34,029 nucleotides of DNA. Source: an uncultured Bacteroidales bacterium. Lineage in GTDB: Bacteria; Bacteroidota; Bacteroidia; Bacteroidales; UBA932. Location of the stretch: assembly GCA_900318955.1 (NCBI GenBank), contig ONMJ01000022.1, positions 1 to 34,029 of the forward strand. The letters are read 5' to 3'. The position numbers and the translations under genes are program-made. This document shows, piece after piece, positions 1 through 25,307 of the stretch. Below the pieces are notes generated by a model, which saw nothing but the letters and a program-made list of their open reading frames with translations, did not search any database and was not told where the DNA came from. How positions within the stretch are numbered: position 1 is the first letter of the stretch; each line of letters opens with the position of its first letter.

Positions 1-1323
1 AAAGAGGTGGATGCAGACGGACTGTTGGTGTTGAGGTGGAACCGATTCACCCGCGATGCGTCGGACGGGTGGGACTACATCTCCAAGTTCAAGAAGTACG
101 GCATAGAGGTCAATGCGTCGGAGGAACACCTTGATTTCGAAGTGGCGGAGTCCAAGATTATGCTATCCGTGTACTTGTCGATGGCGGAGGTGGACAATGA
201 CAAGCGTTCCAAGGCAACCAAGGACGGCATACATCAAGCCCTTGCGGATGGGAAATGTGTGGGGATGGCTCCCTATGGATATGCGAACAAGAGGACGGGC
301 AAGCACGAGTGTTGGATAGAGTTCGACCCCAAGGAAGCCCCGTTTGTAACCGAAGCATTCCATCGTGTTGCCTACGGAGTGGAGTCACCCACCGTCGTAT
401 GGAGGGACCTGCGTTCACGCGGAATGAAGGTCAGTGAATCTACTTTCTTCCGCATCCTGCGTAACCGATTCTACATCGGTCAAGTGTTCGTACCCGAGTA
501 CGGCGATTCGCCCGAGCAGTATGTCAAAGGAAAGCATCAGGCATTGACGGATGCCAAGTCATTCTACCTTGTTCAAGACCGTTTGGACGGCAATCGAGAC
601 AAGGCAGAGCCCGAAGTGAAGAAGGTCCCCGACGAGACCTTCTTTATGCGTTCTTTCCTGCGTTGCCCGTACTGTGGTCAAACGGTGTACGGTTCGTTCA
701 GCAAAGGTCGCAACAAGCGATATGCGTACTATCACTGCAACTACTGCGGGAAGTATCGTATTGCAGCGGAGGATGCCAATGACAATATGTGCCGATTCCT
801 GCGTTCACTGAAGCCGAGCGAGGCGGTGATGGCTCTCTATGAGGCTATCCTTGTCGATATGGCCCGAGAGCAGCAGAAACTTTCCAAGGAGGAACTGAAG
901 AAGATGAAAACGGACCTTGCGTCGATGGATGCCAAGATGAAGAAACTGCAAGACAAGTGGTTTGAAGGTGTCATCGATGACGATTCGTTTACGGCGATGA
1001 ATTCACGGCTCGTGGCAGAGAAGAAGAACCTTGAACTGCGGCTTGAGGATGCCAAGGAGCAGCCGATGGACAAGGAGGTGGAGGAGAAGATGAAGTTTTC
1101 ACTCTCGTTCATCGAGAATATGGGCTCCTGCGTGGCTGCAGCCCCGATTCATCTCAAGTTGAATATCCTCGGTTCGATTTTCAACGGAAAAATCATTTTC
1201 GAAAATGAAGCCCCTCGAACCGCGACACTTTCGCCACTCGTTTCTCTAATCGTTGGAGAACCAAGTGTTTACAAGACCCCTAAAACAAAGCAACCCTCGG
1301 ATTCCTCCGAGAGTTGCAGCAGG
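1..1323. mobile_element. Probable end of an integrated element next to tRNA-His
   Basis: A serine integrase gene sits directly against the 3' end of a tRNA gene and points at it. This is the usual position of an integrase beside its attachment site. The rest of the element would lie left of base 1. No second att copy or tRNA 3' fragment is visible because the other end is outside the window, so the boundary given here is an inference: the junction could be in the terminator or inside the tRNA 3' end. Confidence 0.45.
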
Positions 1324-1332
1324 GGTGGATGA
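1..1332 (+). CDS. Large serine recombinase (site-specific integrase), 5' end cut by window edge
   Basis: The reading frame is already open at base 1, so the N-terminal part of the resolvase domain, including the catalytic serine, is missing. What remains starts in the resolvase domain (LRWNRFTRDASDGW, then the long helix with EVDNDKRSKATKDG). A Recombinase domain follows (about residues 80-190), then a zinc ribbon with two CxxC pairs (CPYCG and CNYCG, about residues 220-250). Next is a lysine/glutamate-rich coiled coil (about 290-360) and a short basic tail. This order is that of large serine integrases, which insert phages, conjugative or mobilizable elements at one att site. The last residues (PSDSSESCSRGG) are encoded by the terminator and 3' end of the convergent tRNA-His gene, so the C-terminus may be supplied by the insertion site. 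The family call is firm. Which element it belongs to is not visible. Confidence 0.9.
   Translation, partial: KEVDADGLLVLRWNRFTRDASDGWDYISKFKKYGIEVNASEEHLDFEVAESKIMLSVYLSMAEVDNDKRSKATKDGIHQALADGKCVGMAPYGYANKRTGKHECWIEFDPKEAPFVTEAFHRVAYGVESPTVVWRDLRSRGMKVSESTFFRILRNRFYIGQVFVPEYGDSPEQYVKGKHQALTDAKSFYLVQDRLDGNRDKAEPEVKKVPDETFFMRSFLRCPYCGQTVYGSFSKGRNKRYAYYHCNYCGKYRIAAEDANDNMCRFLRSLKPSEAVMALYEAILVDMAREQQKLSKEELKKMKTDLASMDAKMKKLQDKWFEGVIDDDSFTAMNSRLVAEKKNLELRLEDAKEQPMDKEVEEKMKFSLSFIENMGSCVAAAPIHLKLNILGSIFNGKIIFENEAPRTATLSPLVSLIVGEPSVYKTPKTKQPSDSSESCSRGG
1281..1317 (-). terminator. Rho-independent terminator of tRNA-His
   Basis: On the minus strand a 12-base-pair stem (1306-1317 with 1290-1301, one G-T pair) closes a GGAA tetraloop and is followed by a T-rich run (TTTGTTTTA). 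It begins 6 bases past the tRNA discriminator. On the plus strand no T-run follows, so it works in one direction only. The whole stem is also coding sequence for the recombinase C-terminus. Confidence 0.85.
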
Positions 1333-1451: not shown

Positions 1452-2153
1452 TTAATTTTTCCTGACAATTGATCCTGGCTCGCTGAATTCTATGATATCT
1501 GAGCTTTCAGGCGAGTCGGGATTGCTGAACCAGTTCCATTTTACTTCTATATCGGTAGTGGAATTAGTAGGGAACAAGTCGTCTGCCTTGAAACTTATAT
1601 ATGAGCCGACAAGGGTGTATTGATCATAATCGATTTTGCCCTCAGGCTCACCTTCGGCGCTATGGCGAAGATACAGGGTCAAAACTTCTCCATCTTCGGA
1701 AGGACGTTTGGCAATGATGTCTATGTTATGGACAGTTGAACTGTTTACCTTTAGGTAGAAACTAAAGCCTACGTTGAGGTAACCACCTGAGAACCAAATG
1801 CTTTGTGGAGATACAGGATAGCCTGTCGGAATCACTCCTTCAGGAAGGGTAGAAGCGTCGGTATAGTCTTTTATCTGAATCTTGGTGATAGATTTCAGAT
1901 TAATCTGATATGAGCCATCCTCATTCAATTTCAAAATGTCGCAGACTATAATGGCGCGGTTGTATTCTGCCAAATTGGCCTCCGTATTGTTTTCGACAAT
2001 CTCATATGTGAGGCCGTTGTCTGTAATAATCTTACCGTCGACAATGCTGCAAAGTTCGGTATCATTGTATATTATAAACTCGTCTTTAGGATTGACGTCA
2101 CATGCGCTCATGCCGATAAGTGCCACGGCAAAGAGTATGAGAAACTTTTTCAT
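1452..2153 (-). CDS. NigD-like surface lipoprotein
   Basis: 233 residues with a lipoprotein signal ending at Cys18 (MSAC), followed by acidic residues (DVNPKDE), as is common for surface-exported Bacteroidota lipoproteins. The N-terminal half fits the OB-like domain of NigD proteins. The C-terminal half has the beta-sandwich signature (IWFSGGYLNVGFSFYLK, then LTLYLRHSAEGEPE). NigD-type proteins are named from a Bacteroides bacteriocin (nigrescin) locus, but most copies have no known function. The start codon overlaps the stop of the upstream Fur-family gene by 4 bases (ATGA), so the two are translationally coupled and share a promoter. Family assignment rests on pattern recall rather than a search. 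Confidence 0.7.
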   Translation of the reverse strand: MKKFLILFAVALIGMSACDVNPKDEFIIYNDTELCSIVDGKIITDNGLTYEIVENNTEANLAEYNRAIIVCDILKLNEDGSYQINLKSITKIQIKDYTDASTLPEGVIPTGYPVSPQSIWFSGGYLNVGFSFYLKVNSSTVHNIDIIAKRPSEDGEVLTLYLRHSAEGEPEGKIDYDQYTLVGSYISFKADDLFPTNSTTDIEVKWNWFSNPDSPESSDIIEFSEPGSIVRKN

Positions 2154-2611
2154 AATGCAGTTTTTATCTTTCTTGTTGGTTTTGCAATAATTTGAATGTC
2201 AATATCTTCTACAGTATATCCCTTGAATTTTCTTCTTTTAAGACGGGATCGAATAAGGTCCATGAGTTCGTCATCGAAGATGTCGCGGAAACGGTGGTTC
2301 TCTTTGTCGTAGAGATGGATATGCTTTGACGTAAGGACATCGAAGTACATCTTGTTGTTGCTGCTCATGCGACGGGAATACACCTTGATGTCTGCCAGCT
2401 GAGACAGTATGTTGTATACGGAGGCGACGGTGACTTTGGCGGTCCCTTTCGCTTCCAGTTCCTCGCATACCATGTCGGCGGAAGCATGTCCAAGATCCAT
2501 CATAACCTCGTGAACGGCAAGCCTTTGTCTTGTCGCTTTCATCTTATGTCTCTTCAGGATGGATTTGAACTCATCCATTGAAGGAGTCTTCTGACTGGTC
2601 GCTTGGTTCAT
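2150..2611 (-). CDS. Fur-family transcriptional regulator lacking the CxxC zinc motif
   Basis: 153 residues. The N-terminal winged helix is clear (ATRQRLAVHEVM; recognition-helix region KVTVASVYNILSQL, about residues 59-72). It is followed by the dimerization and metal-binding half, with His42, His97, His99 and His106 in the places where Fur proteins hold metal (GHASAD; SKHIHLYDKENH). The CxxC pairs that hold structural zinc in many Fur proteins are absent; Cys49 is the only cysteine. The effector (iron, zinc, manganese, heme, peroxide) cannot be told from sequence. The promoter just upstream contains a long palindrome shared with the SusCD/nuclease operon promoter, which suggests autoregulation. 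The predicted transcript begins almost at the ATG given here, so it may be leaderless, or translation may begin at the second Met (codon at 2576-2578), right before the conserved domain. Confidence 0.9.
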   Translation of the reverse strand: MNQATSQKTPSMDEFKSILKRHKMKATRQRLAVHEVMMDLGHASADMVCEELEAKGTAKVTVASVYNILSQLADIKVYSRRMSSNNKMYFDVLTSKHIHLYDKENHRFRDIFDDELMDLIRSRLKRRKFKGYTVEDIDIQIIAKPTRKIKTAL

Positions 2612-2615
2612 GATG

Positions 2616-2659
2616 CAAATATACCGCCAATTTTGAAAAAATCAAAAATGGCGGTATAT
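2616..2659 (-). promoter_or_regulatory. Promoter of the Fur-family gene with overlapping palindromic operator
   Basis: Minus-strand promoter: -33 TTTG (2643-2646), 19-base spacer, -7 TATATTTG (2616-2623), a full match to the Bacteroidota consensus. An inverted repeat with 18-base arms and one mismatch (2619-2636 and 2642-2659) around a 5-base A-run covers the -33, the spacer and part of the -7. Each arm carries ATACCGCC followed by AATTTTGA or its near-complement. Because it lies upstream of the predicted start of transcription it acts as DNA, not as an RNA leader. A near copy lies at 14417-14452. Confidence 0.8.
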
Positions 2660-2663
2660 AGTG

Positions 2664-2679
2664 CAGTCCCGAGGGACTG
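2664..2679 (-). terminator. Small hairpin after the SusCD operon, possible weak terminator
   Basis: A perfect 6-bp stem (CAGTCC/GGACTG) with a 4-base loop lies 15 bases past the stop of the last operon gene and just before the Fur-family promoter. In the operon's reading direction no T-run follows, so termination is doubtful. It may only reduce read-through into the regulator gene. Confidence 0.35.
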
Positions 2680-2693
2680 GTTTTAGTTATACT

Positions 2694-4940
2694 CTACTTG
2701 GAGTAGCGGATGGCAAGGTAGTTCATGCACCAGTGTGCCGTAGGATTGATTTCCGCAGTGTCATAGACGGAAGCACTACCTGACGCATTCTTGGTGGGAG
2801 TAAAGCGAATCCATACTTCTTCCTTACCAAGCATTTCCAGAGGGAGTTCGAAGGAGAACTGCTTGTAAATACCAGGAAGCTGCCACCAGCGGACGTTGCC
2901 CCACTGAGCACCTTCAGGAGTGTCGAAATCTGCGATTCTCTGCCAGCCGGATGCCTTGTTGTCGCCAACGGTGTTCCAGTCTATGCTCATGTATCGAGGG
3001 CTTCCGAAGCCCTGCCCACCGGCGGAGAACACTATGGTGAGGTGATCGGTTGAGATACCTGCAGTAGAGAACTTCAGAAGCCATGCTTCAGGAGAATCGG
3101 TCTCAGGATTCCACCAGTGATTCCATCTCCATGCCGAGTTGTCGGAGGCATCCACCTGGCACTTTCCGGCGTTGCCATCGCTGGCAACTGCCGTAGGATA
3201 AGCCGGACGGTTGGTCTTTGGACTCTTGCACAGCATGCTACCGTCAGGAAGGTATACTCCGTTTCCGGTATAAGTGTTTTCAGCATAGTACTTTCCAATC
3301 GGTCCGAGATATGTGAAGTCCAACATATTGTATGCTGTTGCTCCACTGTTTGGATCGGGATAGGAGTGGGTCAGATAGCCGTTGTTGCTTCCGTCAGTCG
3401 GGTTGATTACGTTGTTGTTGATAATAGCATACTGGTATTCAACTACGTAACCGAATGTACTACTTTCCTTCGCTTCTGCAAAAGCGTAGTCAGACTCCTC
3501 GAGGTGACGGATCTGGTAGCGGCCGATGTCTCCCTGATTAGGCTCTCCGGCCCAGGAATACTGGTCGAAGTTCTCATGGACTATGATACCTTTGAAAGTA
3601 CCGGCCCCGTAAGGGAGCTGCTTACCTAATCGCCTGTAAGGCACCTTGGTGTTGGTGAGAGTATAGAGGCTTCCACCCTGATTGTCAATCACAAGAGCAG
3701 GGAACTTGCCGATGTAGTTTGTCCCGGCCGAATGGTTGTTCGGATTGTTCAGGTCGCTGGAATACATGCAAGCGTAGCCTTCATTGATAGGAGTGATAGG
3801 TCCCTTCTTGATACCGAATTCGCAGTCGAGAAGCTCCACCCATGTGTACATGTCATCGTCCGTGAGGTCTTTGATATGCTTCTGCTTGGGCGTTATGGAG
3901 GCTTCTGTGCCACCTGTTGAAGAGAGTACCATATCGGCAGTCACACCGTCGATAATGAAACGGTGAGGGTTTTGCTCTTCAAGGACAGTAGTACCTCTGA
4001 TAAGGAGGCGGACTGTGCTGTAACGTTCAAATACGTTGTCTGCGGCTGTCTTTGTCTTTATCATGAAGCCATAGGCGCCATCCTTTGTCTGAATGTAGGC
4101 AGTGGTGGGGTTGCCTGTGTAGTCGATGCTGGACTCAGTGAGCCTGAGGTTGTCACCTACGTTCTCGTTGCCGAGTTCGCTGATTACGACGCCTTCAACA
4201 ATGTAATCCTGATTGACAGAACCAACCATGTCCCTGACTGATTCGAGCGGGACAAGTACGCCGAACTCGTTCTTGGCGTTGGCCTGGGTAAGCATCAGCG
4301 AGGAGCTGGTGGACTTACCCCATCCGTCGACGAAGTCAAGTTTGATGGTTGCACGACGAAGTGCGACCTCGTCGGGGTTGGCGGCGGCGTCAAACACCAG
4401 CATTCCGTTGGAAATTCTGAGGTTTGAAATCCACTTGGGGTCGCTCTCATTGTTGTATGAGATGACGGGGGTGATGTCCTCAAGGTCGAGATTGGTCAGA
4501 AGGGGAGTGGTCACCTGACCGCCTGTTCCCTGGATAGCCAGGCTCACATTGTTGAATTTCAGCTGCGGGGCCTTGAATCCTTCCTGCTTAACAGTGACCG
4601 TATCTTTTCGGCTTGCAGAAGCAAGAGCGATTCGTCCGAGGCGGGGGAATCCGCTGTTTGTGGCATAGTCTACCTTTATGGTGGCGTCGCCGTCGAAGGT
4701 GGTCTTTCCTTCAGGGAAGGTAATCCAGTCCAGCCCTTCTTCAACAATGCTGATGGAGAAGGTCTCGTTAGAGAGGAATTCCACTTCTAGAGAACCGCTT
4801 TTGTAGGGAACCTGATACTCATGCTTGAGAGTTCCGAACTCGGAGGCGGAACGATACTCGGCGTCATCGATTTTGCATCCAAGGGCGCATGCTGCGCCAG
4901 CTGCGAGGATGAGGATATTTTGGAGTATTTTTGTGTTCAT
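2694..4940 (-). CDS. Surface lipoprotein with BACON-like and DUF5689-like domains
   Basis: 748 residues. A lipoprotein signal ends at Cys22 (ALGC), followed by KIDDAE, an acidic start typical of surface export. Two BACON-like immunoglobulin folds (about 40-125 and 125-225) come next; the first has the usual WITFPEG and TVTVKQEG signatures. A DUF5689-like region (about 230-480) follows, with YIVEGVVISE, an OB-like fold pattern, and the ending GRYQIRHLEESD. The C-terminal 250 residues are rich in Trp and Asn (WRWNHWWNPETDS, AWLLKFSTAGIS) and look like a carbohydrate- or ligand-binding beta-sandwich. No catalytic motif is seen. It is the last gene of the seven-gene operon, 12 bases after its neighbour. 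It is a paralogue of the product at 11177-13312. Likely role: surface substrate binding for the SusC/D transporter (inference). Confidence 0.75.
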   Translation of the reverse strand: MNTKILQNILILAAGAACALGCKIDDAEYRSASEFGTLKHEYQVPYKSGSLEVEFLSNETFSISIVEEGLDWITFPEGKTTFDGDATIKVDYATNSGFPRLGRIALASASRKDTVTVKQEGFKAPQLKFNNVSLAIQGTGGQVTTPLLTNLDLEDITPVISYNNESDPKWISNLRISNGMLVFDAAANPDEVALRRATIKLDFVDGWGKSTSSSLMLTQANAKNEFGVLVPLESVRDMVGSVNQDYIVEGVVISELGNENVGDNLRLTESSIDYTGNPTTAYIQTKDGAYGFMIKTKTAADNVFERYSTVRLLIRGTTVLEEQNPHRFIIDGVTADMVLSSTGGTEASITPKQKHIKDLTDDDMYTWVELLDCEFGIKKGPITPINEGYACMYSSDLNNPNNHSAGTNYIGKFPALVIDNQGGSLYTLTNTKVPYRRLGKQLPYGAGTFKGIIVHENFDQYSWAGEPNQGDIGRYQIRHLEESDYAFAEAKESSTFGYVVEYQYAIINNNVINPTDGSNNGYLTHSYPDPNSGATAYNMLDFTYLGPIGKYYAENTYTGNGVYLPDGSMLCKSPKTNRPAYPTAVASDGNAGKCQVDASDNSAWRWNHWWNPETDSPEAWLLKFSTAGISTDHLTIVFSAGGQGFGSPRYMSIDWNTVGDNKASGWQRIADFDTPEGAQWGNVRWWQLPGIYKQFSFELPLEMLGKEEVWIRFTPTKNASGSASVYDTAEINPTAHWCMNYLAIRYSK

Positions 4941-4952
4941 TGTCCGTAGTTA

Positions 4953-5630
4953 TTAAGGATTCATCTGGGTGATTTCCGCATAGGTCGTAGTCGTCTTCCC
5001 GTCCAGTTTTGTGAACTTGAGAGTGATTCTGGCTCTGCGAGGACGTGTGCCGGTATTGGGCGCGAGAGTGGCTGTGACCATCTCTTCGCTCACGGAGACT
5101 CCCTGTACCCAGCCCCCTTCGGGAGTGGGAACATCTTCGTCATCCTCATCATCGAAGAGGTACTTAAGGTAGCTTACCTCGTTCTCAATAACATCGAGAT
5201 GTTTCACAAGATTGGTCTTGAAACCGAGCTCTACGCTTGTTGTGGCTGCGTCGACAGTCTGGGACCCGGTGAAACTCATAGAAGGTTCAAAGGCGCCTTT
5301 CTGGGTGAACAGCACTGTGTCGCTCTTCCCGGGGACGTCGAAGATGAGACTTACCTGTCTCTCGATGTCGACATTCTGCGACCATGAGAAGGTAATGGCA
5401 GAGTTCCCCTCGCCTTCAAGCCTGTCAAGAGACGCCCAGTCTACAGGATCTTTGAACCGTGCGGTCCAATGCTTGGTGGACCAGACGTTTACCTTGGTGG
5501 AACCGCTGGTGTTCTCAAGCTTGATATCTACAGCGTCGACAGCGAGGTCGAAGGTGGTGTCAGAACTCTTCTCGCAGGAAGCGAGGGCAGCCAGGGCTGC
5601 AAAGGATAAGAATAATAATCTCTTTTTCAT
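4953..5630 (-). CDS. Two-BACON-domain lipoprotein
   Basis: 225 residues with a lipoprotein signal ending at Cys19 (LASC), then EKSSD. Two tandem BACON-like modules fill the rest: residues about 28-115 (STKHWTARFKDPVDWASLD ... VLFTQKG) and about 120-225, the second broken by an acidic loop (DDEDDEDVP). There is no catalytic or C-terminal binding module, so it looks like a short version of the BACON-containing proteins on either side of the transporter genes. It lies 18 bases downstream of susD, the usual place of an accessory surface-binding protein (SusE/F-like position). That role is inferred from position only. Confidence 0.75.
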   Translation of the reverse strand: MKKRLLFLSFAALAALASCEKSSDTTFDLAVDAVDIKLENTSGSTKVNVWSTKHWTARFKDPVDWASLDRLEGEGNSAITFSWSQNVDIERQVSLIFDVPGKSDTVLFTQKGAFEPSMSFTGSQTVDAATTSVELGFKTNLVKHLDVIENEVSYLKYLFDDEDDEDVPTPEGGWVQGVSVSEEMVTATLAPNTGTRPRRARITLKFTKLDGKTTTTYAEITQMNP

Positions 5631-5648
5631 GATGTCGTTCCTCCTTTT

Positions 5649-7145
5649 CTACAGTCCGTATTTTTCATATTCTGCATTGTCCAGAGCACCTCCGGAGTAG
5701 GTTACCTGCTGGCTCGGGATCGGATAGTATTCATGGCATGGCCTGAGGTTGTCTATGGCCTCGGCACGACCAGAATTGTCTCTTACAGACTCATACCAGA
5801 TACCCCAGCGTACAAGGTCGAACTTACGCTGCCATTCGCCAACGAGTTCGCGGCCTCTTTCCTTCTGGATCTCATTGATAAGAAGAGCCTTGGTCTTGAA
5901 AGAGTAGTCTCCCGTGCCGGCTCTCTGACGAACCATGTTCAGGTATCTTACCGACTCTTCGGGTTGGTCTTTCTCAGCATAGTTCTCAGCCTGCATAAGG
6001 ATAGCGTCGGCATAGCGGAAGATATGGTTGTTGTTGTGGTCGGCAGCCTGGTCGAGGTTGGGGCACCAGAATTTAGGTCCCATCCAAGGCCTGGAGGCGA
6101 CGCTCTTGAATGTAATTCCGTTATAATCCCATGCCATGTTGAGGTGGGTGCGCTTGTCAATACCCCTTCTCGGCTGCAGCGAACCGCTCATGTAAGCGGT
6201 CGGACGCATCGAGGTCCATGTGGTGGAGGTGGTACCGATCTCGGGAATTGAAACGCCGTCATAGATGTCGGTGGTTCCCTGATGGGTAGGGGTGGAGATG
6301 GATGCGGTGTTGTGGGTGACATTCAGACCTCCGGCTACATAGACCCTCTGGACCTCGAAGATGGATTCCGGTTTGTTTTTGCAGCGGAACAGTATGTCTT
6401 CGAGAGGATAGTTGGTCTCGTTGAATTCGCCGTAGATATCCTCAATGTGCTTGATTGCACTTATTGCAGTGTCCCAGTCCTTATTCCACTGAGCCATCTT
6501 GGCAATGAGCATCCAGCCGCAGGCTGCGCCCATATGATAATCCTTGATGTCGGCAAAACGGGCCTGCTGCATAGAAGGAACACATCCCTCCAGGTCCTCG
6601 ATCAGGGCCTTTCTGGTTTCAAATGCGCTCATCCTTCCCATCTTTGCGATTTCCTTCATAGTGTCGATATCGGCAACCCTGTTGGTGTAGAAGGGGACAT
6701 CGCCGAAGAAGGAGGTGAGAAGCCAGTAATAGAAGGCTCTTACGACCTTGGCTTCCGCAACAAGCGGAGCTTTGCCCTCGTCTGTAAGGGCGGGGGAGTT
6801 CTCGATTCCGTAGATTACCGCATTGCTCCTCATGATGGACTGGTAGCAGTGCTGCCAGAGCGTAGAGCCGAATCCGGGATTCGAAGGGGATATCTTGAGC
6901 CTTGCATTGTCATTGTTGGTGTTGACAAACAGAAGGTCTGTTACAGCCTCGACCGAAGTCATCATGTCAGAACTGTAGATAGTCTTGAGGCTCACGTACA
7001 ATCCGTTGAGGGACGCCTTGCACTGGGCTTCGCTCTGGAAGTAGTCGTCCGGCGCCACGAAGGAAGTAGGAGTCTCGGTGAGATCGCATGATACCGCTGC
7101 AAATACGAGGGCGGCAAGGCTGAGCTTTATAAATATATTTTTCAT
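5649..7145 (-). CDS. SusD/RagB-family outer-membrane substrate-binding lipoprotein
   Basis: 498 residues. A lipoprotein signal ends at Cys20 (AVSC), then DLTETPTSFVAPDDYFQSE, the standard opening of SusD proteins. The N-terminal TPR part (KVVRAFYYWLLTSFFGDVPFYT) and the C-terminal RagB/SusD domain (FRYADAILMQAENYAE; YLNMVRQRAG; INEIQKERGRELVGEWQRKFDLVRWG) are both intact and of normal length. SusD proteins form the lid of the SusC barrel and bind the substrate at the cell surface. It follows susC by 20 bases, so the two are co-expressed. The family also serves peptides and other oligomers, so the fold alone does not indicate a glycan substrate. Confidence 0.95.
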   Translation of the reverse strand: MKNIFIKLSLAALVFAAVSCDLTETPTSFVAPDDYFQSEAQCKASLNGLYVSLKTIYSSDMMTSVEAVTDLLFVNTNNDNARLKISPSNPGFGSTLWQHCYQSIMRSNAVIYGIENSPALTDEGKAPLVAEAKVVRAFYYWLLTSFFGDVPFYTNRVADIDTMKEIAKMGRMSAFETRKALIEDLEGCVPSMQQARFADIKDYHMGAACGWMLIAKMAQWNKDWDTAISAIKHIEDIYGEFNETNYPLEDILFRCKNKPESIFEVQRVYVAGGLNVTHNTASISTPTHQGTTDIYDGVSIPEIGTTSTTWTSMRPTAYMSGSLQPRRGIDKRTHLNMAWDYNGITFKSVASRPWMGPKFWCPNLDQAADHNNNHIFRYADAILMQAENYAEKDQPEESVRYLNMVRQRAGTGDYSFKTKALLINEIQKERGRELVGEWQRKFDLVRWGIWYESVRDNSGRAEAIDNLRPCHEYYPIPSQQVTYSGGALDNAEYEKYGL

Positions 7146-7165
7146 AAACTCTTTCCTTTTAAGCG

Positions 7166-10100
7166 TTAGTATCTAAGCTGGAGGCTGAACATTACGATAC
7201 GAGCCTTAGGATAGGCATTGAAGTCGTAACGTCTGAGGGTTGAGCCGCCGCTGCTGGTTGAAACGTCGGGGTCGAAGCCGGCATATTTCTTTAGGAGGAA
7301 GAGGTTGTCTCCACTCACACTCAGCTTGAGGTCTCTGAGGTTGCCGCTAGTGAGTTTTCTCATATCGAAGGTGTAGCTCAAAGAAGCCGACTTAAGCCTC
7401 AGGTAAGAAGCATCGTAGAGGATGCGGGTACTTGGAAGCTGGTCGTACGAACCTGCACGCGGAATATCGGATTCGGGATTTCTGATGGGATGCCATGCAT
7501 TCTGCATGTAGCGCATCTGGTTGGTGAACTGCGAACCGTTTCCGTTGAAAAGCTCCGGAATATTGTAGATCTTTCCACCAAGGGAGTAGTTGAAGTAGAT
7601 GCTCAGGGCAAATCCGTGGATGTTGAAGGTATTCTGGAGACCTCCGTAGACGAGGGCGTCAGCACTTCCTAGGTAAATCAGGTCATTCTTGTCAAGAATA
7701 CCGTCATTATTGATATCCAGATACTTGCTGTGACCTACTGATTTGTACTTGGAAACGTAGGTGTGGGTGATGGCATTTCTGTCAAGTTCTTCCTGATTAT
7801 GCCAAACACCGGCATCCTGGAATCCCCAGAGGGCGTTGAGCGGATATCCCTTTACATAACCATACATTCTGTAGTTGGTAGCATAGTTCGGAGCGTAAGC
7901 ATCTACGAAGTCTTCGCTTCCGATGTCCTCTACCAACTGGGTGTTGTGGGAAAGGGTAAAGCTTGTTGTCCAAGAGAACTTTGGCTTGAGGATATTGTAG
8001 CTCTCGATTGAAAGCTCGACACCCCTGTTGCTGGTCCTACCGATATTGCTCATCACTGAAGAGAATCCGGAGTGATTCGCCACCTGGACATTCAGGAGAA
8101 GGTCCTTGGTCTGGGCGTAGTAAGCTTCGGCCGTAATGTTGAGCCTCTTGTCGAAGAATGCCATGTCGAGGGCGGCGTTGTAGGTGTCAGTGATTTCCCA
8201 TGTAAGGTCGGGAGCTGCAAGACGGTCAACATATGTACCCATGTTCATCGTCGTCCCTCCTTCGCCGTCACCGAATAAGTATGCGTTTGCATTGGTGTTG
8301 ATGCGGGCAAGCGACTGATATGCCGAGATTCCGTTGTTTCCGGCGCGGCCGACACTGAGCCTGAGGGCAAGTTCGTCGACGTTGCGGGCGTTTTTCATGA
8401 ACGGCTCGTTGTGGATGTTCCACTTGACGGCAGCTGAGGGGAAGAACGCCCACTTGCGGTTGGAAGCGAAGTTCGAAGCACCGTCGTAACGGAAGGTCGC
8501 GGTTGCATAATAGCGGCTCTTCCAGTTGTAGTTCAACCTTCCAAGGAAGGATTCAGTCATTCGGAGCGAGTTGCTGGTGGTGACTGTCATGTTCTCCTTG
8601 TCGGGAATTCCCTGCATGTTGTTCCACTTGAGCTGGTCAAGGGTATATCCCTTTCCATTTGCGGTGATGCTGTTGGATTCCGTCCTTGAGAGGGTGAAAC
8701 CACCGAGGACATTAAAGTTATGTCCATTGTCGGTCTCGTATGTCCAGTTGATGGTATTCTCGTTGGAGAGGGTATAATTGTCATATTCGTTCCTCTCTGC
8801 GGTACCACCTTCGCCAACCTTCTTTGCAGGAAGGAAACCTGGCTGGTAGTAGTAGTAATGCCTCTCGTAGGTCTTATAAGTGAACTGGCTCTTGATCACC
8901 AGGTTCTTGACAGGAGTAATCTCCAGATAGGCGGTGTCGTTCATCAACTGGTGGGTGTATTTGTTGGTCACGTTGTTGATGAGGGTGAGAGGCGAATTGA
9001 ATTTCTGTCCAGAGTACCAGAGGTCGTTGAAGTCAGCCTGTGAGTCCAGAAGAGGATTCAGGAAGATGGCGGCGCTCCACCATGACGTACCGGAGATGGT
9101 CGCATTGTTGACCCTCTGGTTACGAAGGGTGTAGTTGAACATGACGCCGACCTTGAGCCACTTGAAGAGCTTGCGGTCGAGATTCAGACGCATCATGTAC
9201 TTGTCTTCACCGCTGTTCTTGATAATACCTTCATTGTCCTGGTATCCAAGGGAGGCAAAATACTGTCCGGCGTCGGTCCTTCCGGAGACGGAAAGGCTGT
9301 AGTTCTGGTAGGGGGCCAGACGGGTTATTACATCCATCCAGTCAGTACCTTCTCCATAGCTGTCCGGATCCTTGTAGGGGAATGCTGACATCGGAGCGTT
9401 GACTGTTGCATCGGCATTGTTATCCGAGGTGAGGAAGGTGGCGAGGTCGTTACGGAATCTTGCGAACTCAGCGCCGTTCATAATATCCAGCTTATTAGGA
9501 AGCATGGAGAATCCGGCATCAGCGCGGAAGGTGATGTCAGGACGTCCCTGCTTGTTGCTACCTGTCTTTGTGGTGATGACTATGACACCGTTTGCTCCTC
9601 TTGCACCGTAGATGGCGGTGGAAGAAGCATCCTTAAGGATAGTGATGGAAGCAATATCAGCGGAGTTGATATCGTTGAGGTCGTTGATACCGTCGATTAC
9701 ACCGTCGACCACGATAAGAGGTTCATTCGTTGCGGTAATGGAACGGGTACCACGGATACGAATTGAAGTGGTTGCACCAGGCTCACCGGTGGTGGACATG
9801 ATATCGGCACCTGCGACACGGCCCTGAAGGGCATGGTCGACGGAGGCGATAGGAATATCCCTAAGGTTTTTCATGTCAACCGCGGTGGCACTTCCGGTCA
9901 GGTCGGCTTTCTTGACCGAGCCGTATCCGATTACCACCACCTGATCCAACTCATTGGCATTGGTATACATGGTAACGTCTATGACGCTTCGTTTGCCAAC
10001 CTTTTCCTTGAGGTCGTTGTATCCGATATATTGGAATGTCAGGACCTGATCCGGTCGGGCTTTGATGCTGTAGCGACCCTGGGCGTCGGTAGCCGTTCCG

Positions 10101-10261
10101 GTCTTGGTACCCTCGACCATGACAAAGACACCCATCATAGGCTCCTTCTCCTCGTCGAGAACGGTACCAGTGATTGTCCTGGGACCGGCATCCTGAGCAA
10201 ATGACTGCCAAGGTATAAGCATCAGGATCGCTGCTATTATCAATACTGAAAATCTTTTCAT
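7166..10261 (-). CDS. SusC/RagA-family TonB-dependent outer-membrane transporter
   Basis: 1031 residues. A cleavable signal peptide (ends about QSFAQ) is followed by a carboxypeptidase-D-like domain (ITGTVLDEEKEPMMGV ... GRYSIKA), a TonB-box region (ELDQVVVIGYGSVKKADLTGS), the plug (SIRIRGTRS; NEPLIVVDGV; ITILKDASSTAIYGARGANG) and a 22-strand-type barrel ending in SLQLRY with the usual aromatic/hydrophobic close. No STN domain is present, so no anti-sigma coupling is expected. With SusD it would import a bound oligomer using TonB energy. It is fourth in the operon, behind two lipoproteins and a nuclease-fold enzyme, whereas susC is usually first in a locus of this type. Confidence 0.96.
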   Translation of the reverse strand: MKRFSVLIIAAILMLIPWQSFAQDAGPRTITGTVLDEEKEPMMGVFVMVEGTKTGTATDAQGRYSIKARPDQVLTFQYIGYNDLKEKVGKRSVIDVTMYTNANELDQVVVIGYGSVKKADLTGSATAVDMKNLRDIPIASVDHALQGRVAGADIMSTTGEPGATTSIRIRGTRSITATNEPLIVVDGVIDGINDLNDINSADIASITILKDASSTAIYGARGANGVIVITTKTGSNKQGRPDITFRADAGFSMLPNKLDIMNGAEFARFRNDLATFLTSDNNADATVNAPMSAFPYKDPDSYGEGTDWMDVITRLAPYQNYSLSVSGRTDAGQYFASLGYQDNEGIIKNSGEDKYMMRLNLDRKLFKWLKVGVMFNYTLRNQRVNNATISGTSWWSAAIFLNPLLDSQADFNDLWYSGQKFNSPLTLINNVTNKYTHQLMNDTAYLEITPVKNLVIKSQFTYKTYERHYYYYQPGFLPAKKVGEGGTAERNEYDNYTLSNENTINWTYETDNGHNFNVLGGFTLSRTESNSITANGKGYTLDQLKWNNMQGIPDKENMTVTTSNSLRMTESFLGRLNYNWKSRYYATATFRYDGASNFASNRKWAFFPSAAVKWNIHNEPFMKNARNVDELALRLSVGRAGNNGISAYQSLARINTNANAYLFGDGEGGTTMNMGTYVDRLAAPDLTWEITDTYNAALDMAFFDKRLNITAEAYYAQTKDLLLNVQVANHSGFSSVMSNIGRTSNRGVELSIESYNILKPKFSWTTSFTLSHNTQLVEDIGSEDFVDAYAPNYATNYRMYGYVKGYPLNALWGFQDAGVWHNQEELDRNAITHTYVSKYKSVGHSKYLDINNDGILDKNDLIYLGSADALVYGGLQNTFNIHGFALSIYFNYSLGGKIYNIPELFNGNGSQFTNQMRYMQNAWHPIRNPESDIPRAGSYDQLPSTRILYDASYLRLKSASLSYTFDMRKLTSGNLRDLKLSVSGDNLFLLKKYAGFDPDVSTSSGGSTLRRYDFNAYPKARIVMFSLQLRY

Positions 10262-10291
10262 TTTGTTGGTTTTATGAGGATTGCAGGAACC

Positions 10292-11173
10292 TTACTTTTT
10301 AATTCTGAATATTGCGCACACGGGGTAGTGATCCGATACGCCGCTCAGTGTGAAATCATCCTTCAGGATTCGGGCGGAAACTACATTCGACGCCATTGCC
10401 TTGGAACCGAAAATATAGTCGATTCGAGTGCCGCCCGTGGTTGAACTCTGGAAGGCGGAGTGAGCCTCGTGCACAAGATCGAAGTATCCGCTACTGAGAA
10501 CCTCGTTCTGCGCGCGGTATTCCCATGTACCGGCTGTATTTGCCTTGTCATAGGGTGACGGGCTGTTGAAATCGCCCATCATTAGCCATGAGGGTTCCTC
10601 AGGATACTGCCTGATAGTGTTGTCGAGATATGTTGTGATTTCAGAGAGGCGGTAGTCTTCTCCCGTTCCGGAAGCACCCACATTATGAGGCCAGGTGCTG
10701 AAGGGGTAAAGATGGAGAACCACAAAGTTGATTCCGTTGATCTTGGCATGGATTGCTCCACGTGCTCCGTCAGGATAGTCCAGCATGCGGACTACGTCCT
10801 CGATGGGATATCTGGAAGTGAGGCCCACAGTGTAACCGGAGTTGTTGGGGTTTAGAACAGCGTATTCATGTCCCCATCTCTTTGCAAGGGCACCGAGGGA
10901 GGTCTCGGAGAAGCCGTTGCATTCCTCAAGGGCGAGAACATCCGGATCCTGTTCTTTTACCCATGCGACAAAGTTGTCGTAATTATTACCCTTGTCAGCG
11001 ACCATCCCCTGGAGGATATTGTAATTGACGACCTTGAAGGTCCCATACTCAACATTGCTGCCTGCATTGACATCGATATTGGGCTCGGGCTCGACGGTGG
11101 GAGTCTTGGTGCAGCCTGCTAGAAGGGCCACAGAAAGCATCAGAGATGATGCGATATAATATAACTTTCTCAT
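10292..11173 (-). CDS. Endonuclease/exonuclease/phosphatase (EEP) family lipoprotein
   Basis: 293 residues. A lipoprotein signal ends at Cys21 (LAGC), then a Pro/Glu linker. The EEP fold fills residues 46-293 with all expected motifs: Asn52 (VVNYNILQG), Glu83 (LALEECN), His154 (VVLHLYP), Asp201/Asn203 (MMGDFNSPS), Asp252 (TRIDYIF) and Asp281-His282 (SDHYPV). The superfamily cleaves phosphoester bonds with a divalent metal, and its members include DNase I-like nucleases, sphingomyelinases and inositol-phosphate phosphatases. Lipid anchoring and its place between the binding proteins and susC suggest surface cleavage of a phosphodiester polymer before uptake (inference). The catalytic core is closely similar to the C-terminal part of the product at 14646-17111 (shared pattern GMxADxxNNYxNFVxWVK). 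Confidence 0.9.
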   Translation of the reverse strand: MRKLYYIASSLMLSVALLAGCTKTPTVEPEPNIDVNAGSNVEYGTFKVVNYNILQGMVADKGNNYDNFVAWVKEQDPDVLALEECNGFSETSLGALAKRWGHEYAVLNPNNSGYTVGLTSRYPIEDVVRMLDYPDGARGAIHAKINGINFVVLHLYPFSTWPHNVGASGTGEDYRLSEITTYLDNTIRQYPEEPSWLMMGDFNSPSPYDKANTAGTWEYRAQNEVLSSGYFDLVHEAHSAFQSSTTGGTRIDYIFGSKAMASNVVSARILKDDFTLSGVSDHYPVCAIFRIKK

Positions 11174-11176
11174 GGC

Positions 11177-13312
11177 TTACTTCTTATAACGGATTGCTGA
11201 ATAACAGATATCGAGATAGCCATTGTTCTTGGAGAGCGGACCTCCATTGTTCCATCCTGTTGCACTCTCTATCATGTCCCTGGAAGGAATAATCCTTACC
11301 ATGGCTACATCATGTCCGAGAATTTCGGCAGGGAGGGCATAGAAGTTGGGCTTTTCTCCGGAAATCTGGTGGAACATAGTCTTGGGGCTCCAGGTTGCGG
11401 TCGGCGGGATGAAGAATTCGTCCCCGACTTTCTTCCATGTTGCACCTTCGTCAATACTGTACTCTACATTCCAGAAAGGCGGACTTGTCTGGCTATGGTG
11501 GCGGGTTGTAAATGCAAGGGAAGCGAATGAACCGGAAAGGCCCTTTGTGGAGAAGCGCCAGACGGCGTAGTTCGGCTCTCCTGCGGCAGCATCCCACCAT
11601 GTGTTGAAACCGTAGATGGCGTTACCGACAGTCTTGGTGTAGTCCGAAGGATGGCAATAACCTGAAGTAATAACCGGCCATAGACCCTTGCAGTGATAGA
11701 AGAAGCCCTTACCGTAGGTGGGCTCTATTCCCCAGTATGTTGCAGGGGGATAGTCGTCGATATTGAATGACGGATCGGGATGGACTCGGCGAGCATGCCC
11801 GTCGGAGGCATTGTCGGCCCATTCGGTGATGACCGTGGTATAGCTATCCTTTGCGGAAGCAGTAACCTGGATGTCGGCCTTGTTGCAACTACGTATCTGG
11901 TAGCGGCCTAGGCTCTGGGCACTGTCAGGATTATATCTCTGGCTCTGCTCATGGACGAGGATGCCGCTTACCTTGCCCTGTCCCTGCGGAACGGGGAAGT
12001 TGTTGATCCAAGGGCACATGGAGTTGAAAAGCTGGTAAATCCAGTCTCCATGAATGTCGGCAACCACGCTTGCGAGTTTGGCCTGACGGGCGCGGTATCC
12101 ATAATTCATAAGGCAGATCATACCCCTGCGGATAGGATATTCGCATTTTTTCAAAGTGACGTATGTATAGATATCTTCGTCCTTCAGATCCCTGATATAG
12201 CGATTCTTTACCGGGATATCTTCAGCCGTACCGACAACACTGGAAATATAGTGCTCAGCCTGAACTCCGGAGAGGGTGTACCTGACGGGGTTACTCTCCC
12301 TCTTGAGGGTCAGTCCCTTCAGCCAAAGCTTGGTCTTTGCAAATCGGACAGTCTGGTTGGCTTCTATTGAAGAAGTGATAATCCTGAATCCCAGCGATCC
12401 GTCCTCGTTTTCAAGGTACACGGTAGTGTCGTCGACGGTGTAGTCTACACCCTTGTATGTGGCGGTAGGAGATGCCGGGTCGCCGCTTGAAGTCTCAGAG
12501 TCAATTGTTTCCCCCATATTTCTTCCGTCGCGGTCGCTCACCACAAGACCTTCGATGGAGATATCGTCCTGAATTACCATCTCTCCGTCGGCAGTGAGAA
12601 GATTCCTCACATCCTGGAAGGTCTTAAGGACGGTGCTCTCGGTACCTCCGGGGATTCCCTGGGTAATCCGGGTCGAAGTGCTGTGTGTGTTGCCCCATTC
12701 ATCTTTATAGGTAATAGTGACAGTTGCCTTGCGCTCTGCGAACTTGGTGTTCTCGTCAACCTTTATGACAATCCTTCCAAGGTCATCGCGGAGGATAGGA
12801 GTAAGCCAGCCTTCACCGCCTTCGTCCCAAGTGGTAGCAACAGTGAAATGTTCAAATTCAGATACAGGGACATTGGTGTCAAAAAGGGTGGAATCGGCAC
12901 CTGCCACGCATGAGAAGTTGAGATTCTCGGCTTCGATTGCAACAGACGGCTCAATTCCATACTGGTTGAGAAAAACAGTATCGATTGTGGCCTTTGAGTT
13001 GGAGCTCACCAGGACCATTCCCTGGCGGATAAGTCCGTTGTTGGCGCGGTACTTGACGGTGACTTTTCCGTTCCCGTTGCCGGTGTTTTCCCCTTCGATG
13101 GATGCCCATGTAGCGGTGTCGTATCCAAGGGAAGCTTTCCACTGGCCATTGGAGGTGACGGCAATGTCCTTCGTTCCGGCCTCTGAACTTATGGTGACCG
13201 AAGTGGACTTTCCATAGGTCCCGGGTTCAATCTCCACGGGGACCTCTTCCTGGCAGGAAAGAGCCGCTCCGACGAGCATCAAAATGATTGATAATTTAGT
13301 TATGGGTTTCAT
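11177..13312 (-). CDS. Surface lipoprotein with BACON-like and DUF5689-like domains (paralogue of 2694-4940)
   Basis: 711 residues. A lipoprotein signal ends at Cys20 (ALSC), followed by QEEVPVEIE. Two BACON-like folds (about 35-120 and 120-220; signatures NGQWKAS and TVFLNQYG) precede a DUF5689-like region (about 230-470: ISIEGLVVSDRDGRN; GRYQIRSCNKAD). The C-terminal part has YGFNTWWD, WRFSTKGLSG and WNVEYSIDEGATWKKVG, which line up with the same features in the protein from 2694-4940, so the two are paralogues placed at opposite sides of the transporter genes. No catalytic residues are recognised. It ends 3 bases before the EEP gene. DUF5689-type proteins commonly accompany EEP enzymes in this phylum (from memory, not checked). 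A substrate-capturing role is inferred. Confidence 0.75.
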   Translation of the reverse strand: MKPITKLSIILMLVGAALSCQEEVPVEIEPGTYGKSTSVTISSEAGTKDIAVTSNGQWKASLGYDTATWASIEGENTGNGNGKVTVKYRANNGLIRQGMVLVSSNSKATIDTVFLNQYGIEPSVAIEAENLNFSCVAGADSTLFDTNVPVSEFEHFTVATTWDEGGEGWLTPILRDDLGRIVIKVDENTKFAERKATVTITYKDEWGNTHSTSTRITQGIPGGTESTVLKTFQDVRNLLTADGEMVIQDDISIEGLVVSDRDGRNMGETIDSETSSGDPASPTATYKGVDYTVDDTTVYLENEDGSLGFRIITSSIEANQTVRFAKTKLWLKGLTLKRESNPVRYTLSGVQAEHYISSVVGTAEDIPVKNRYIRDLKDEDIYTYVTLKKCEYPIRRGMICLMNYGYRARQAKLASVVADIHGDWIYQLFNSMCPWINNFPVPQGQGKVSGILVHEQSQRYNPDSAQSLGRYQIRSCNKADIQVTASAKDSYTTVITEWADNASDGHARRVHPDPSFNIDDYPPATYWGIEPTYGKGFFYHCKGLWPVITSGYCHPSDYTKTVGNAIYGFNTWWDAAAGEPNYAVWRFSTKGLSGSFASLAFTTRHHSQTSPPFWNVEYSIDEGATWKKVGDEFFIPPTATWSPKTMFHQISGEKPNFYALPAEILGHDVAMVRIIPSRDMIESATGWNNGGPLSKNNGYLDICYSAIRYKK

Positions 13313-13324
13313 GGCTGGTTCCTT

Positions 13325-14362
13325 TTATTTATCTTTTTCTAATTGATCCACCCAGGCGAGCCCGCCGATGAGATTGTCCCAATGCTCACGGTTGATTGTG
13401 AACAGGTAGAAGTTGTCAATGAATACCCTGCTTGGAGAGGCGTTCGTGTATTCTCCGTCCATTACCCTGATACGGGTGGAAGAGGAAAGCATGTTTCCGG
13501 GCTTTGAGACCACGTAGAAGCGGTTCCCGACATTTGTCCACATACTTTTTGCCAGCTCTTCTGCATTCGGGTCCAAATTTGGAACCTTGACGGTCTTGAC
13601 TTTGCTTCCGTCGGAGAATTCTCCGCCTCCAGTGACTTCAACTGTAAGAGTGACATCGTCTTTGACGCCGTCTTTGTCTGCGTACGCAACCGCGTCGAAG
13701 TAAACAAGGAGTACGGTGTCCCTGTAGAAGTTGGAGTTGTAGGGAGAGATGAGGTCTGCTCCGTGTGAAGCGTCGTCACCCAGCTGGATGAAGCCGTTAC
13801 GACCATAGCAGTAGGCTTCGTCGAGCCCGGGGCCCTTCGTAGAAGACCAGCCTTCGTCGGCCTGGGCTTCTGTCCAAAGGGAAATCAGACGGCCGCCGAG
13901 ACCCTCCAGAGGGTTGGCAGAGCCATACTGAAGGAAGGAGAAATTGCTTCCGGAGCGGGAGGCGAATCCTTGGTTCACCTGCACGAAGTTGTTGAGATAC
14001 TTCTCCGGAGCCATCAGGGAGATCGTCCCGGTCCTGCGGAACGGAGCGCCTTCCTGGTCCTTTACAGTGAAGGTGATGATATCCTTTCCAGTGGCGGCGT
14101 CATGCCGTTTTCCTTCAAGGGTCAGCCAGTCCTTCACCGTGGAAGCAGTCTCGAACTTCATCGTGTACTCCACATTGGCATCCACGTAAAGGGAATAGGT
14201 GCCTCCTTCCGCAATGTTGACCTGAGGGTTATATGTGCCCTTCTCGTCAGCCTTGTCGGAAGCCAGCAGGTATTCTCCACGGGACCAGTCTTTCTCCTCA
14301 CAGCCGACAAGAGCAGTCAGCGCAAGAAGTGCAGTCAGGATGAATAGATTCTGTTTAGCCAT
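13325..14362 (-). CDS. BACON-type lipoprotein, first gene of the SusCD/nuclease operon
   Basis: 345 residues from the Met of MAKQNLF. An upstream in-frame ATG at 14482 is rejected because it lies before the promoter at 14411-14442. A lipoprotein signal ends at Cys21 (LVGC), followed by EEKDW. Residues about 45-150 form a BACON-like fold (VEYTMKFETASTVKDWLTLEG; NNFVQVNQG). Residues about 155-340 look like a jelly-roll binding module (SFLQYGSANPLEGLGG ... RVFIDNFYLF). No enzymatic motif is seen. The predicted 5' untranslated region is about 40 bases. As the lead gene of the operon it should be strongly expressed once the promoter is derepressed. Function beyond surface binding is unknown. Confidence 0.75.
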   Translation of the reverse strand: MAKQNLFILTALLALTALVGCEEKDWSRGEYLLASDKADEKGTYNPQVNIAEGGTYSLYVDANVEYTMKFETASTVKDWLTLEGKRHDAATGKDIITFTVKDQEGAPFRRTGTISLMAPEKYLNNFVQVNQGFASRSGSNFSFLQYGSANPLEGLGGRLISLWTEAQADEGWSSTKGPGLDEAYCYGRNGFIQLGDDASHGADLISPYNSNFYRDTVLLVYFDAVAYADKDGVKDDVTLTVEVTGGGEFSDGSKVKTVKVPNLDPNAEELAKSMWTNVGNRFYVVSKPGNMLSSSTRIRVMDGEYTNASPSRVFIDNFYLFTINREHWDNLIGGLAWVDQLEKDK

Positions 14363-14378
14363 AGATTGACTTGTGTTA

Positions 14379-14621
14379 TTAAAAGGTTTTGATGTTGTTA
14401 TAGTAATAGACAAATATACCGCCGAATTTGAAATAAAGCAAATTCGGCGGTACAAAATCGATAGCCCTTTTGGCGTAGACATCGATAAACTCGCTTCTTT
14501 CAGCGTTCGGATCGTTATGAACGCAGGAAGAAACGGTCATCGGGGCGGCTGCGATCAATCCTGCTCCGAGAAGAGTCCCGGCCAGGCTTTTCAGACTGCT
14601 CACGAATCTGTTGTTTGACAT
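14379..14621 (-). CDS. Possible small lipoprotein ORF (80 codons) running into the next operator
   Basis: The first half looks genuinely coding: a signal peptide (SLKSLAGTLLGAGLIAAAP) ending in VSSC, then VHNDPNAERSEF, with GC-rich third positions. It begins 24 bases after the upstream EEP gene, so it could be its last cistron. The second half is encoded by the operator and promoter of the seven-gene operon (PPNLLYFKFGGIFVYYY) and is probably not conserved protein. It may be a real short lipoprotein, or the remnant of a longer gene cut when the promoter region arrived. No family is recognised. Confidence 0.4.
   Translation of the reverse strand: MSNNRFVSSLKSLAGTLLGAGLIAAAPMTVSSCVHNDPNAERSEFIDVYAKRAIDFVPPNLLYFKFGGIFVYYYNNIKTF
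14411..14452 (-). promoter_or_regulatory. Promoter of the seven-gene SusCD/nuclease operon with palindromic operator
   Basis: Minus-strand promoter: -33 TTTG (14439-14442), 20-base spacer, -7 TATATTTG (14411-14418). A perfect inverted repeat with 14-base arms (14417-14430 and 14439-14452; TACCGCCGAATTTG and its complement) around an 8-base A-rich centre covers the -33 and touches the -7. It matches the repeat at the Fur-family promoter (2619-2659) in both arms and in its position relative to the promoter. Start of transcription is predicted near 14405. Confidence 0.82.
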
Positions 14622-24611: not shown

Positions 24612-25307
24612 ATAAGCCTTTATAGTTTTCTCGAGACCGAGGTACAGTGCGTCGGAAATGAGGGCATGGCCGATAGAAACCTCGTCGGTCCAGGGGATTG
24701 TGCGGATGAAATAATTGAGATTGTCGAGGTTGAGGTCATGTCCTGCATTCAGTCCGAGGCCGGCCGAGCGGGCGGCTTTTGCCGTCTCGAAGTATCTTGC
24801 GATAGCAATTTCCGGATCGAGATAGTATTCCCTGGCGTAATCAGCCGTGTACAGTTCCACCCTGTCAGCCCCGCAAATAGCGGCTCCTTCCGCCATAAAA
24901 GGATCCGGATCAATGAAAATTGAAGTTCGTATTCCCTTGGATTTGAATTCTTTGCAAATATCCGTCAAGAAACTCCGATTCTTTATCGTATCCCATCCGG
25001 CGTTGGAAGTGATGGCATCCGGAGCATCCGGAACAAGAGTTACCTGATCGGGAACGACCTCGAGTACGAGGTCTATGAAACTATCTATCGGGTTGCCTTC
25101 TATGTTGAATTCGGTCTTTATATTCGGACGAATTTCCCTAACGTCGCTGTAGCGGATATGCCTTTCGTCCGGCCTTGGGTGGACTGTAATCCCTTGTGCC
25201 CCGAATTCTTCACACCTTCGTGCTGCGAGAGCTACGTCCGGAAGATTTCCCCCGCGGGCGTTACGGATAGTCGCTATCTTGTTGATGTTGACACTTAGCC
25301 TTGTCAT
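24588..25307 (-). CDS. pdxJ: Pyridoxine 5'-phosphate synthase
   Basis: 239 residues from the Met of [10 protein letters not shown], where the family begins; an ATG eight codons earlier is less likely. PdxJ joins 1-deoxy-xylulose 5-phosphate and 3-amino-1-hydroxyacetone phosphate to make pyridoxine 5'-phosphate. Family motifs are all visible in a TIM barrel: [71 protein letters not shown] and [18 protein letters not shown]. It is divergent from nadK with 86 bases between the starts. Confidence 0.96.

Follow-up and report, generated by a model that had tools for sequence, protein, structure and literature searches.

Putative Fur-type operator and a second, probably diverged palindrome on two promoters of an uncultured Bacteroidales locus

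The Fur family includes PerR, a regulator with peroxide-defence targets whose box has a 7-1-7 layout. The full ICE consensus is TTTAGAA-N3-TTCTAAA, and none of the ICE boxes known to us has GC arms. Two long palindromes, P1 and P2, are described here in a 34,029-nucleotide stretch of DNA from an uncultured gut or rumen bacterium of the Bacteroidales (ONMJ01000022.1, contig 37 of the 2.4-Mb assembly GCA_900318955.1; hereafter the window), with P1 lying on the promoter of a Fur-family regulator gene (fur) and P2 on a promoter inside an operon for endonuclease/exonuclease/phosphatase (EEP) family proteins, BACON proteins and a SusC/SusD pair (SusCD). Among the closest described systems is Irr of alphaproteobacteria, a member of the Fur superfamily that has an HxH motif, as does the window protein (PMC7762939), and whose targets include a rubrerythrin-like gene (PMC3413700); the ICE sequence contains TTCTAA, which the half-site TTC(T/A)AA found here resembles (PMC7540006). 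Har of Porphyromonas gingivalis, a Bacteroidales Fur homologue, has been described to repress dnaA, to bind the dnaA promoter and to be released by hemin, and has Cys-Pro-Leu in place of HxH (PMC4222909). PgFur has two CXXC motifs and was reported not to bind heme (PMC6613475), so that heme binding by Har/PgFur is reported in one paper (PMC4222909) and denied in the other (PMC6613475).

The reading towards which we lean is that P1 is the regulator's own operator, and that P2 is a diverged second operator coupling the EEP/BACON/SusCD operon to fur control. P1 and P2 would then be operators over two Bacteroidetes-type promoters, and a dimeric repressor at either palindrome would lie over the -33 TTTG and extend to the -7 box, thereby blocking RNA polymerase. 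The P1 core would serve self-regulation by the adjacent CxxC-less, HxH-bearing protein, and P2 would most likely be a second, diverged operator-promoter of like layout inside an older EEP-BACON-SusCD operon, which through P2 would be controlled jointly with fur. The GC arms may give the same protein extra contacts at the weak P2, or may serve a second protein.

The P1 core was compared with the upstream regions of 80 fur orthologues—the best 80 of 167 relatives, with proteins 55–72% identical to that of the window and records titled Bacteroidales or Bacteroidia, several of them Candidatus Cryptobacteroides; the closest is 72% identical, and the sample holds no same-species or sister genome. 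These regions share a 21-base inverted repeat, AAWTTDGAA-NNN-TTCHAAWTT, with a 9-3-9 layout that differs from that of PerR. At least 13 of its 18 positions are matched in 71 of the 80 upstream regions, as against 2 of 80 shuffled controls in which base composition alone was preserved; both the consensus and the scoring matrix were built from the regions that they score, and these begin at the tblastn match rather than at an established start codon, with one of them holding fewer than 200 upstream bases. On that matrix, the P1 core reaches 21.3 bits and the next-best 21-mer of the window, that of P2, 6.6 bits; the orthologue sites themselves have a median of 26.3 bits, a 5th percentile of 14.7 and a minimum of 9.7. 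The box overlies the -33/-7 elements in orthologue L042 as at P1, with the P1 -7 stretch TATATTTGCATCATG recurring there, and in many other relatives it stands just upstream of a TTTG. Nine orthologues lack the box, and seven of these have fur directly behind recN (L036, L038, L039, L040, L041, L043, and L088); in L032 and L033 fur also follows recN, yet the box is present. By its sequence, the P1 core is an AT-rich inverted repeat of Fur/Irr type, and it is best read as the putative operator of the adjacent regulator—that is, as a self-regulation site. A preliminary description of this DNA had proposed an operator lying on the promoter and autoregulation of the Fur-family gene, and the conservation of the core supports both; its view that the motif does not resemble the AT-rich boxes of Fur is not supported, with GC richness being found in the outer arms alone. 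Upstream of Fur-family homologues in other families of the order (L228, L241, L245, L248, L249, and L250), repeats of roughly TAAGAAT-N-ATTCTTA were seen, which are possibly a wider Bacteroidales form of the box.

The fur protein passes the curated PF01475 cut-off (48.9 vs 23.1 bits), and its top NCBIfam profiles are IrrA (57.7 bits, cut-off 150) and Irr (53.5 bits, cut-off 170), both below cut-off; the best solved chain by sequence is PerR (4i7h, E 2.2e-6). It resembles both Irr and PerR. The stretch HIHLYDKENHRF stands where classical members have HxHxxCxxC, with HIH present, and the CxxC motifs of the structural-zinc site of classical Fur, PerR and Zur were not found in the protein, which sets it apart from PerR. 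It likewise differs from Har/PgFur in having HxH and no CxxC. HxH is present in 79 of the 80 orthologue proteins, the remaining one being unreadable, and CxxC in none of those 79, in agreement with the CxxC-less clade put forward in the preliminary description. Matches to the protein were found in 97 of 247 genomes at the order level (a few of the own genus included), and HxH without CxxC recurred in every readable protein (22 of 29) from the order-level and genus loci. The genome itself has two FUR-family matches, the second of which bears CxxC motifs. This CxxC-less clade occurs in many uncultured gut and rumen Bacteroidales.

A putative regulon was delineated by scanning 61 genus genomes that are at least 90% complete, the own genome included, for boxes at no more than one mismatch, with a reversed-motif control. 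Boxes are present in 43 of the 61, with 115 occurrences as against 5 in the control. The best site from each of 30 box-bearing genomes (the other 13 lie outside this set) gave 30 loci, of which 9 have the box before dnaA, 6 before nrdD, 5 before a rubrerythrin-type gene, 3 before fur, and 1 each before an msrA/msrB fusion and ppdK, with the remaining 5 having no assigned target; Pfam was run on 8 of the target proteins, and for boxes between divergent genes the target was picked by the analyst, as in L208, where the rubrerythrin start is 315 bases from the box and the divergent gene 149 bases away. In the nine genomes with a dnaA target (L115, L198, L204, L205, L210, L211, L212, L217, and L218), the box stands ~190–270 bases before dnaA, at position ~1501, and the pattern suggests that the replication initiator is under conserved control through the box. 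This placement recalls Har, for which dnaA is likewise a target. The likeness to Irr lies in the profile ranking described above, the HxH motif, the half-site sequence and a rubrerythrin-type target; the differences are that Irr belongs to another phylum, that dnaA and nrdD are among the box targets here, and that the family cut-offs are not reached.

Boxes of 24.5 bits precede dnaA and nrdD in the own genome as well. At three mismatches, 36 own-genome boxes were found as against 16 in the control, and trust was therefore limited to the places with 0–1 mismatches (dnaA and nrdD) and to P1; five more own-genome loci were inspected and showed nothing convincing. Before the own nrdD, two overlapping boxes of 24.5 and 9.3 bits were seen (L117:1501-1537), with an inverted repeat, noted by eye, between them and the gene. 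Because dnaA, nrdD, rubrerythrin-type genes and fur all have the box in front of them in this genus, the regulator, if it binds there, probably links iron, heme or peroxide status—each a presumed candidate for its signal—to DNA replication, deoxynucleotide supply and peroxide defence. If so, the operator of a CxxC-less Fur clade would be known in sequence, together with a set of its targets (fur, dnaA, nrdD, and rubrerythrin-type genes), and the link between heme/iron and replication initiation reported for P. gingivalis Har would become testable in a second lineage.

The two palindromes were found as first described, with P1 having 18-nt arms (2619-2636/2642-2659) that are 94% complementary around a 5-nt loop, and P2 having 14-nt arms (14417-14430/14439-14452) that are 100% complementary around an 8-nt loop; the spacers from TTTG to TATATTTG are of 19 bases at P1 and 20 bases at P2. 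The -33 and -7 elements are predicted from the Bacteroidetes promoter consensus. The -7 box of P1 ends four bases from the fur ATG, and the fur mRNA may therefore be leaderless, or translation may start from a later Met. The preliminary description regarded both sites as the same palindrome; the arms and TTTG/CAAA are indeed common to the two, but the bases adjacent to the arms differ symmetrically, being A in P1 and G in P2, and the centre is wider by 1 bp in P2. All three occurrences of ATACCGCC in the window are inside P1 and P2 (0.49 expected), and TACCGCC-N10-26-GGCGGTA occurs at three places genome-wide, namely P1, P2 and C31:24597, the last with a GC-rich interior. The joint pattern TACCGCC-NNN-TTTG-N7/8-CAAA-NNN-GGCGGTA (TACCGCCNNNTTTGN{7,8}CAAANNNGGCGGTA), written from P1 and P2 themselves, matches these two sites only in the 2.4-Mb genome, even when as many as 3 of its 22 defined positions may differ, with 0 matches in the reversed control. 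Repeats of this kind could also act as hairpins in read-through transcripts, serving attenuation, processing or stability: on the gene strand they fold at -27.7 and -25.8 kcal/mol (z -9.7 and -7.7), both stand between same-direction genes, and the loop varies (5 and 8) while the arms remain paired. Such folding is, however, expected of any long palindrome, no T run follows either repeat on the gene strand, the predicted transcription starts lie downstream of both, and the P1 core is kept as a box in orthologues with unpaired flanks, which together make an RNA element highly improbable.

Because the arms and the promoter layout are shared, the balance tips somewhat towards common control of P1 and P2, and the SusCD/nuclease operon could plausibly be controlled through P2. 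When one base at its centre is left out, P2 scores 10.3 bits, a value exceeded in the window only by that of P1 (13.4 in the same scoring) and reached by 1.3% of 20,000 composition-shuffled palindromes. In L191, a member of the genus, a 17.6-bit box stands directly before an EEP-family gene (in the order EEP-fur-nigD) that is 48% identical to part of the 820-amino-acid EEP protein of the window, and this arrangement lends independent support to the idea that the box of this regulator can precede an EEP gene. Boxes of 12.9 and 13.4 bits were found upstream of homologues of the 820-amino-acid protein in L186 and L187. P2 itself looks like a new internal promoter, since the related loci examined below lack the palindrome and the likeness of the adjoining lipoprotein gene to its homologue ends near the P2 edge: the start of the 80-amino-acid open reading frame there resembles that of a 373-amino-acid frame at L123:11864-12985, which in its later part shares 37% identity with the first BACON gene downstream of P2. 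If the reading of P2 as a second operator is true, this would be a clear case of an operator extended and reused, bringing a nutrient operon under an existing regulator.

A number of observations weigh against that reading. The strict score of P2 is low (the 6.6 bits given above) and its centre 1 bp too wide for the box; a third window site, a 22-mer at 24939, reaches 9.0 bits on the relaxed scale; and the better of the P2 half-sites reaches 9.7 bits out of 14.5 and is about the tenth best in the window, with the other at -1.4 bits. The preliminary description had suggested looking for the palindrome at related loci, and in 29 other loci with a homologue of the first P2 gene, drawn from 79 other genomes that have such a homologue, none like P2 precedes it; one box-like site at most occurs among them (L173, 11.7 bits), where the gene is operon-internal. 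Furthermore, ACCGCC and GGCGGT occur together in 0 of the 80 orthologue promoters (220 bases), the 9-base flanks of the box pair at 9 of 9 positions at P1 and at no more than 6 of 9 in the 71 orthologue sites, and the own-genome dnaA and nrdD boxes are without arms. Of 30 genus rows in the flank comparison, 13 were set aside because their minus-strand loci stood in the wrong orientation.

Single arms are found in a few of the 80 orthologue promoters (ACCGCC in 3 and GGCGGT in 4). Across 400 genus genomes, the own included, the joint pattern has 4 three-mismatch places outside the own genome as against 5 in the reversed control, which is chance level for the 399 others, and viral contigs gave 0 exact matches. 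A new operator type for the whole clade, as initially envisaged, was rejected on these counts; conservation before orthologous regulator genes holds for the core and not for the full palindrome. From the sequences compared, the arms are an addition of this lineage outside the conserved box, and the regulator probably needs no arms, since the own dnaA and nrdD boxes are armless. The loose pattern TACCGCC-N10-26-GGCGGTA was found in 28 of 149 wider-family genomes (own included), with many matches in the reversed control also, and by eye none of the matched sequences in the 28, P1 and P2 aside, has a TTTG...CAAA interior. Among 265 sequences (2.18 Mb, P1/P2 duplicates included), TACCGCC/GGCGGTA pairs with an AT-rich inside are P1, P2, one in L030 and three at coding-looking places (L017, L021, and L022), with none in the reversed control. 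The L030 example (L030:1500-1535, genome G036 of another genus of the family) is a TACCGCC/GGCGGTA palindrome with an AT-rich core and no TTTG/CAAA, just upstream of a PF01637 ATPase gene, and because of it such armed palindromes are not wholly confined to the own genome; it makes a second, arm-reading regulator slightly more likely and the favoured reading slightly less so. Three plasmid-borne homologues of this ATPase in other Bacteroidota also have upstream GC-block palindromes, with 17–27-base arms and each of a different sequence (L265:405-475, L266:354-409, and L267:497-548). Since PF01637 ATPase genes have such palindromes upstream, promoters with GC-block palindromes may occur more widely in Bacteroidota, and the idea that a protein other than Fur reads the arms deserves to be taken seriously.

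Two regulators might accordingly be envisaged, with the Fur-family protein reading the AT core of P1, a second protein reading the arms at P1 and P2 and truly regulating the nuclease/SusCD operon, and the two controls meeting at P1; the PF01637 ATPase family, in which some genes have GC-block palindromes of their own, offers a candidate lead for the arm reader. This division would fit the identity of the arms in P1 and P2 whereas the P2 core is weak, the armless boxes before the own dnaA and nrdD and in the 80 orthologue promoters, the palindromes upstream of the ATPase genes, and the predicted DNA-reading-helix stretch TVASVYNILSQLAD, which is identical in L031, L184 and L191, all without arms. 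It remains a tentative explanation, as no arm-reading protein was identified in the own genome, where no search aimed at one was made, the arm centres lie 28 and 29 bp apart, a distance unsuited to a single usual dimer, symmetry extends to the inner bases of P2, two genomic sites are few for an independent regulator, and the L030 palindrome has no TTTG/CAAA interior. Rather doubtful is a lineage-specific composite operator, in which GC arms added around a Fur-type box and recurring at a second promoter would couple EEP-nuclease/SusCD uptake to a CxxC-less Irr-like regulator, thus tying the scavenging of outside DNA to iron/heme/peroxide control of replication; the arms would then either extend the contacts of a Fur-family protein in a new way or let a partner dock.

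The features of the locus are collected in Table 1. Of the 80 orthologue loci, 71 contain trxB, 68 contain recN and 49 a nigD-like gene; the window has a 14.4-kb EEP/BACON/SusC/SusD block that separates fur from trxB. In three other genomes (L123/L185, which are one genome, L184, and L191), a comparable block lacking P2 is found upstream of fur, with that of L191 sharing the trxB neighbours of the window, and L186-L190 contain the block in whole or in part, with no fur in the fetched stretch, outside of which fur may lie. A homologue of the 820-amino-acid EEP protein heads the operon in the examined relatives that have it. For the smaller EEP protein, the best NCBIfam model is exodeoxyribonuclease III, below cut-off. 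Bacteroides thetaiotaomicron BT3563, an extracellular DNase of a gut Bacteroidales species that acts on extracellular DNA (PMC11078008), may be functionally analogous to the EEP proteins; it is not induced by bile, and the accessible text of that paper mentions no Fur link.

Table 1. Positions of the genes, palindromes and predicted promoter elements in the window
Feature	Position	Strand	Basis
Serine-recombinase-like gene	1-1332		
NigD-like lipoprotein gene, overlapping the fur stop	1452..2153	-	
fur, 153-amino-acid (aa) CxxC-less, HxH-bearing Fur-family regulator (PF01475)	2150..2611	-	Pfam, sequence reading
Putative fur promoter -7 element TATATTTG, overlapping a P1 arm	2616..2623	-	Read from sequence; promoter consensus
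P1, palindrome overlying the fur promoter, with an AT-rich core between TACCGCC and GGCGGTA arms	2619..2659	-	Inverted-repeat search, pattern scan
P1 core, putative Fur-family box AATTTTGAA-AAA-ATCAAAAAT	2629..2649	.	2 mismatches to consensus; 21.3 bits
Putative fur promoter -33 element TTTG, within the core box	2643..2646	-	Read from sequence; promoter consensus
BACON protein, 748 aa, last gene before P1	2694..4940	-	
BACON protein, 225 aa	4953..5630	-	
SusD-type lipoprotein	5649..7145	-	
SusC-type TonB-dependent receptor	7166..10261	-	
EEP family protein	10292..11173	-	Lipoprotein-type N-terminus by eye
DUF5689/BACON-type protein	11177..13312	-	Both just below Pfam cut-off
BACON-type lipoprotein, 345 aa, first gene behind P2	13325..14362	-	Pfam BACON below cut-off
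80-aa open reading frame, 5' part of a lipoprotein gene	14379..14621	-	Alignment by eye
Putative P2 promoter -7 element TATATTTG	14411..14418	-	Read from sequence; promoter consensus
P2, perfect palindrome on the promoter inside the EEP/BACON/SusCD operon	14417..14452	-	Inverted-repeat search, pattern scan
Putative P2 promoter -33 element TTTG	14439..14442	-	Read from sequence; promoter consensus
EEP-family protein, 820 aa	14646..17108	-	

No description of this box or locus was found in the openly readable literature. The palindromes could conceivably be the ends or targets of a mobile cassette around the operon, perhaps moved by the serine recombinase, given that the likeness of the shortened lipoprotein gene to its homologue stops near P2 and that two stretches of the recombinase gene are 98% and 95% identical between the window and L123:3-785, where fur is only 72% identical. 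Both repeats, however, stand in the same register on a promoter, the box in the P1 core is old and conserved, a similar block stands beside fur in three genomes that lack the P1/P2 arms, and the joint pattern is at chance level in the 399 other genus genomes and has no exact match in viral contigs, so that mobility appears about as improbable as an RNA element. The recombinase gene, which adjoins nigD in both genomes and within which both contigs end, looks like a recently mobile element. In addition, an exact 11-base direct repeat, GAATTTGAAAT, was observed at 14424-14434 in P2 and at 14649-14659 at the 3' end of the gene for the 820-amino-acid EEP protein, and may reflect either chance or a trace of the origin of P2.

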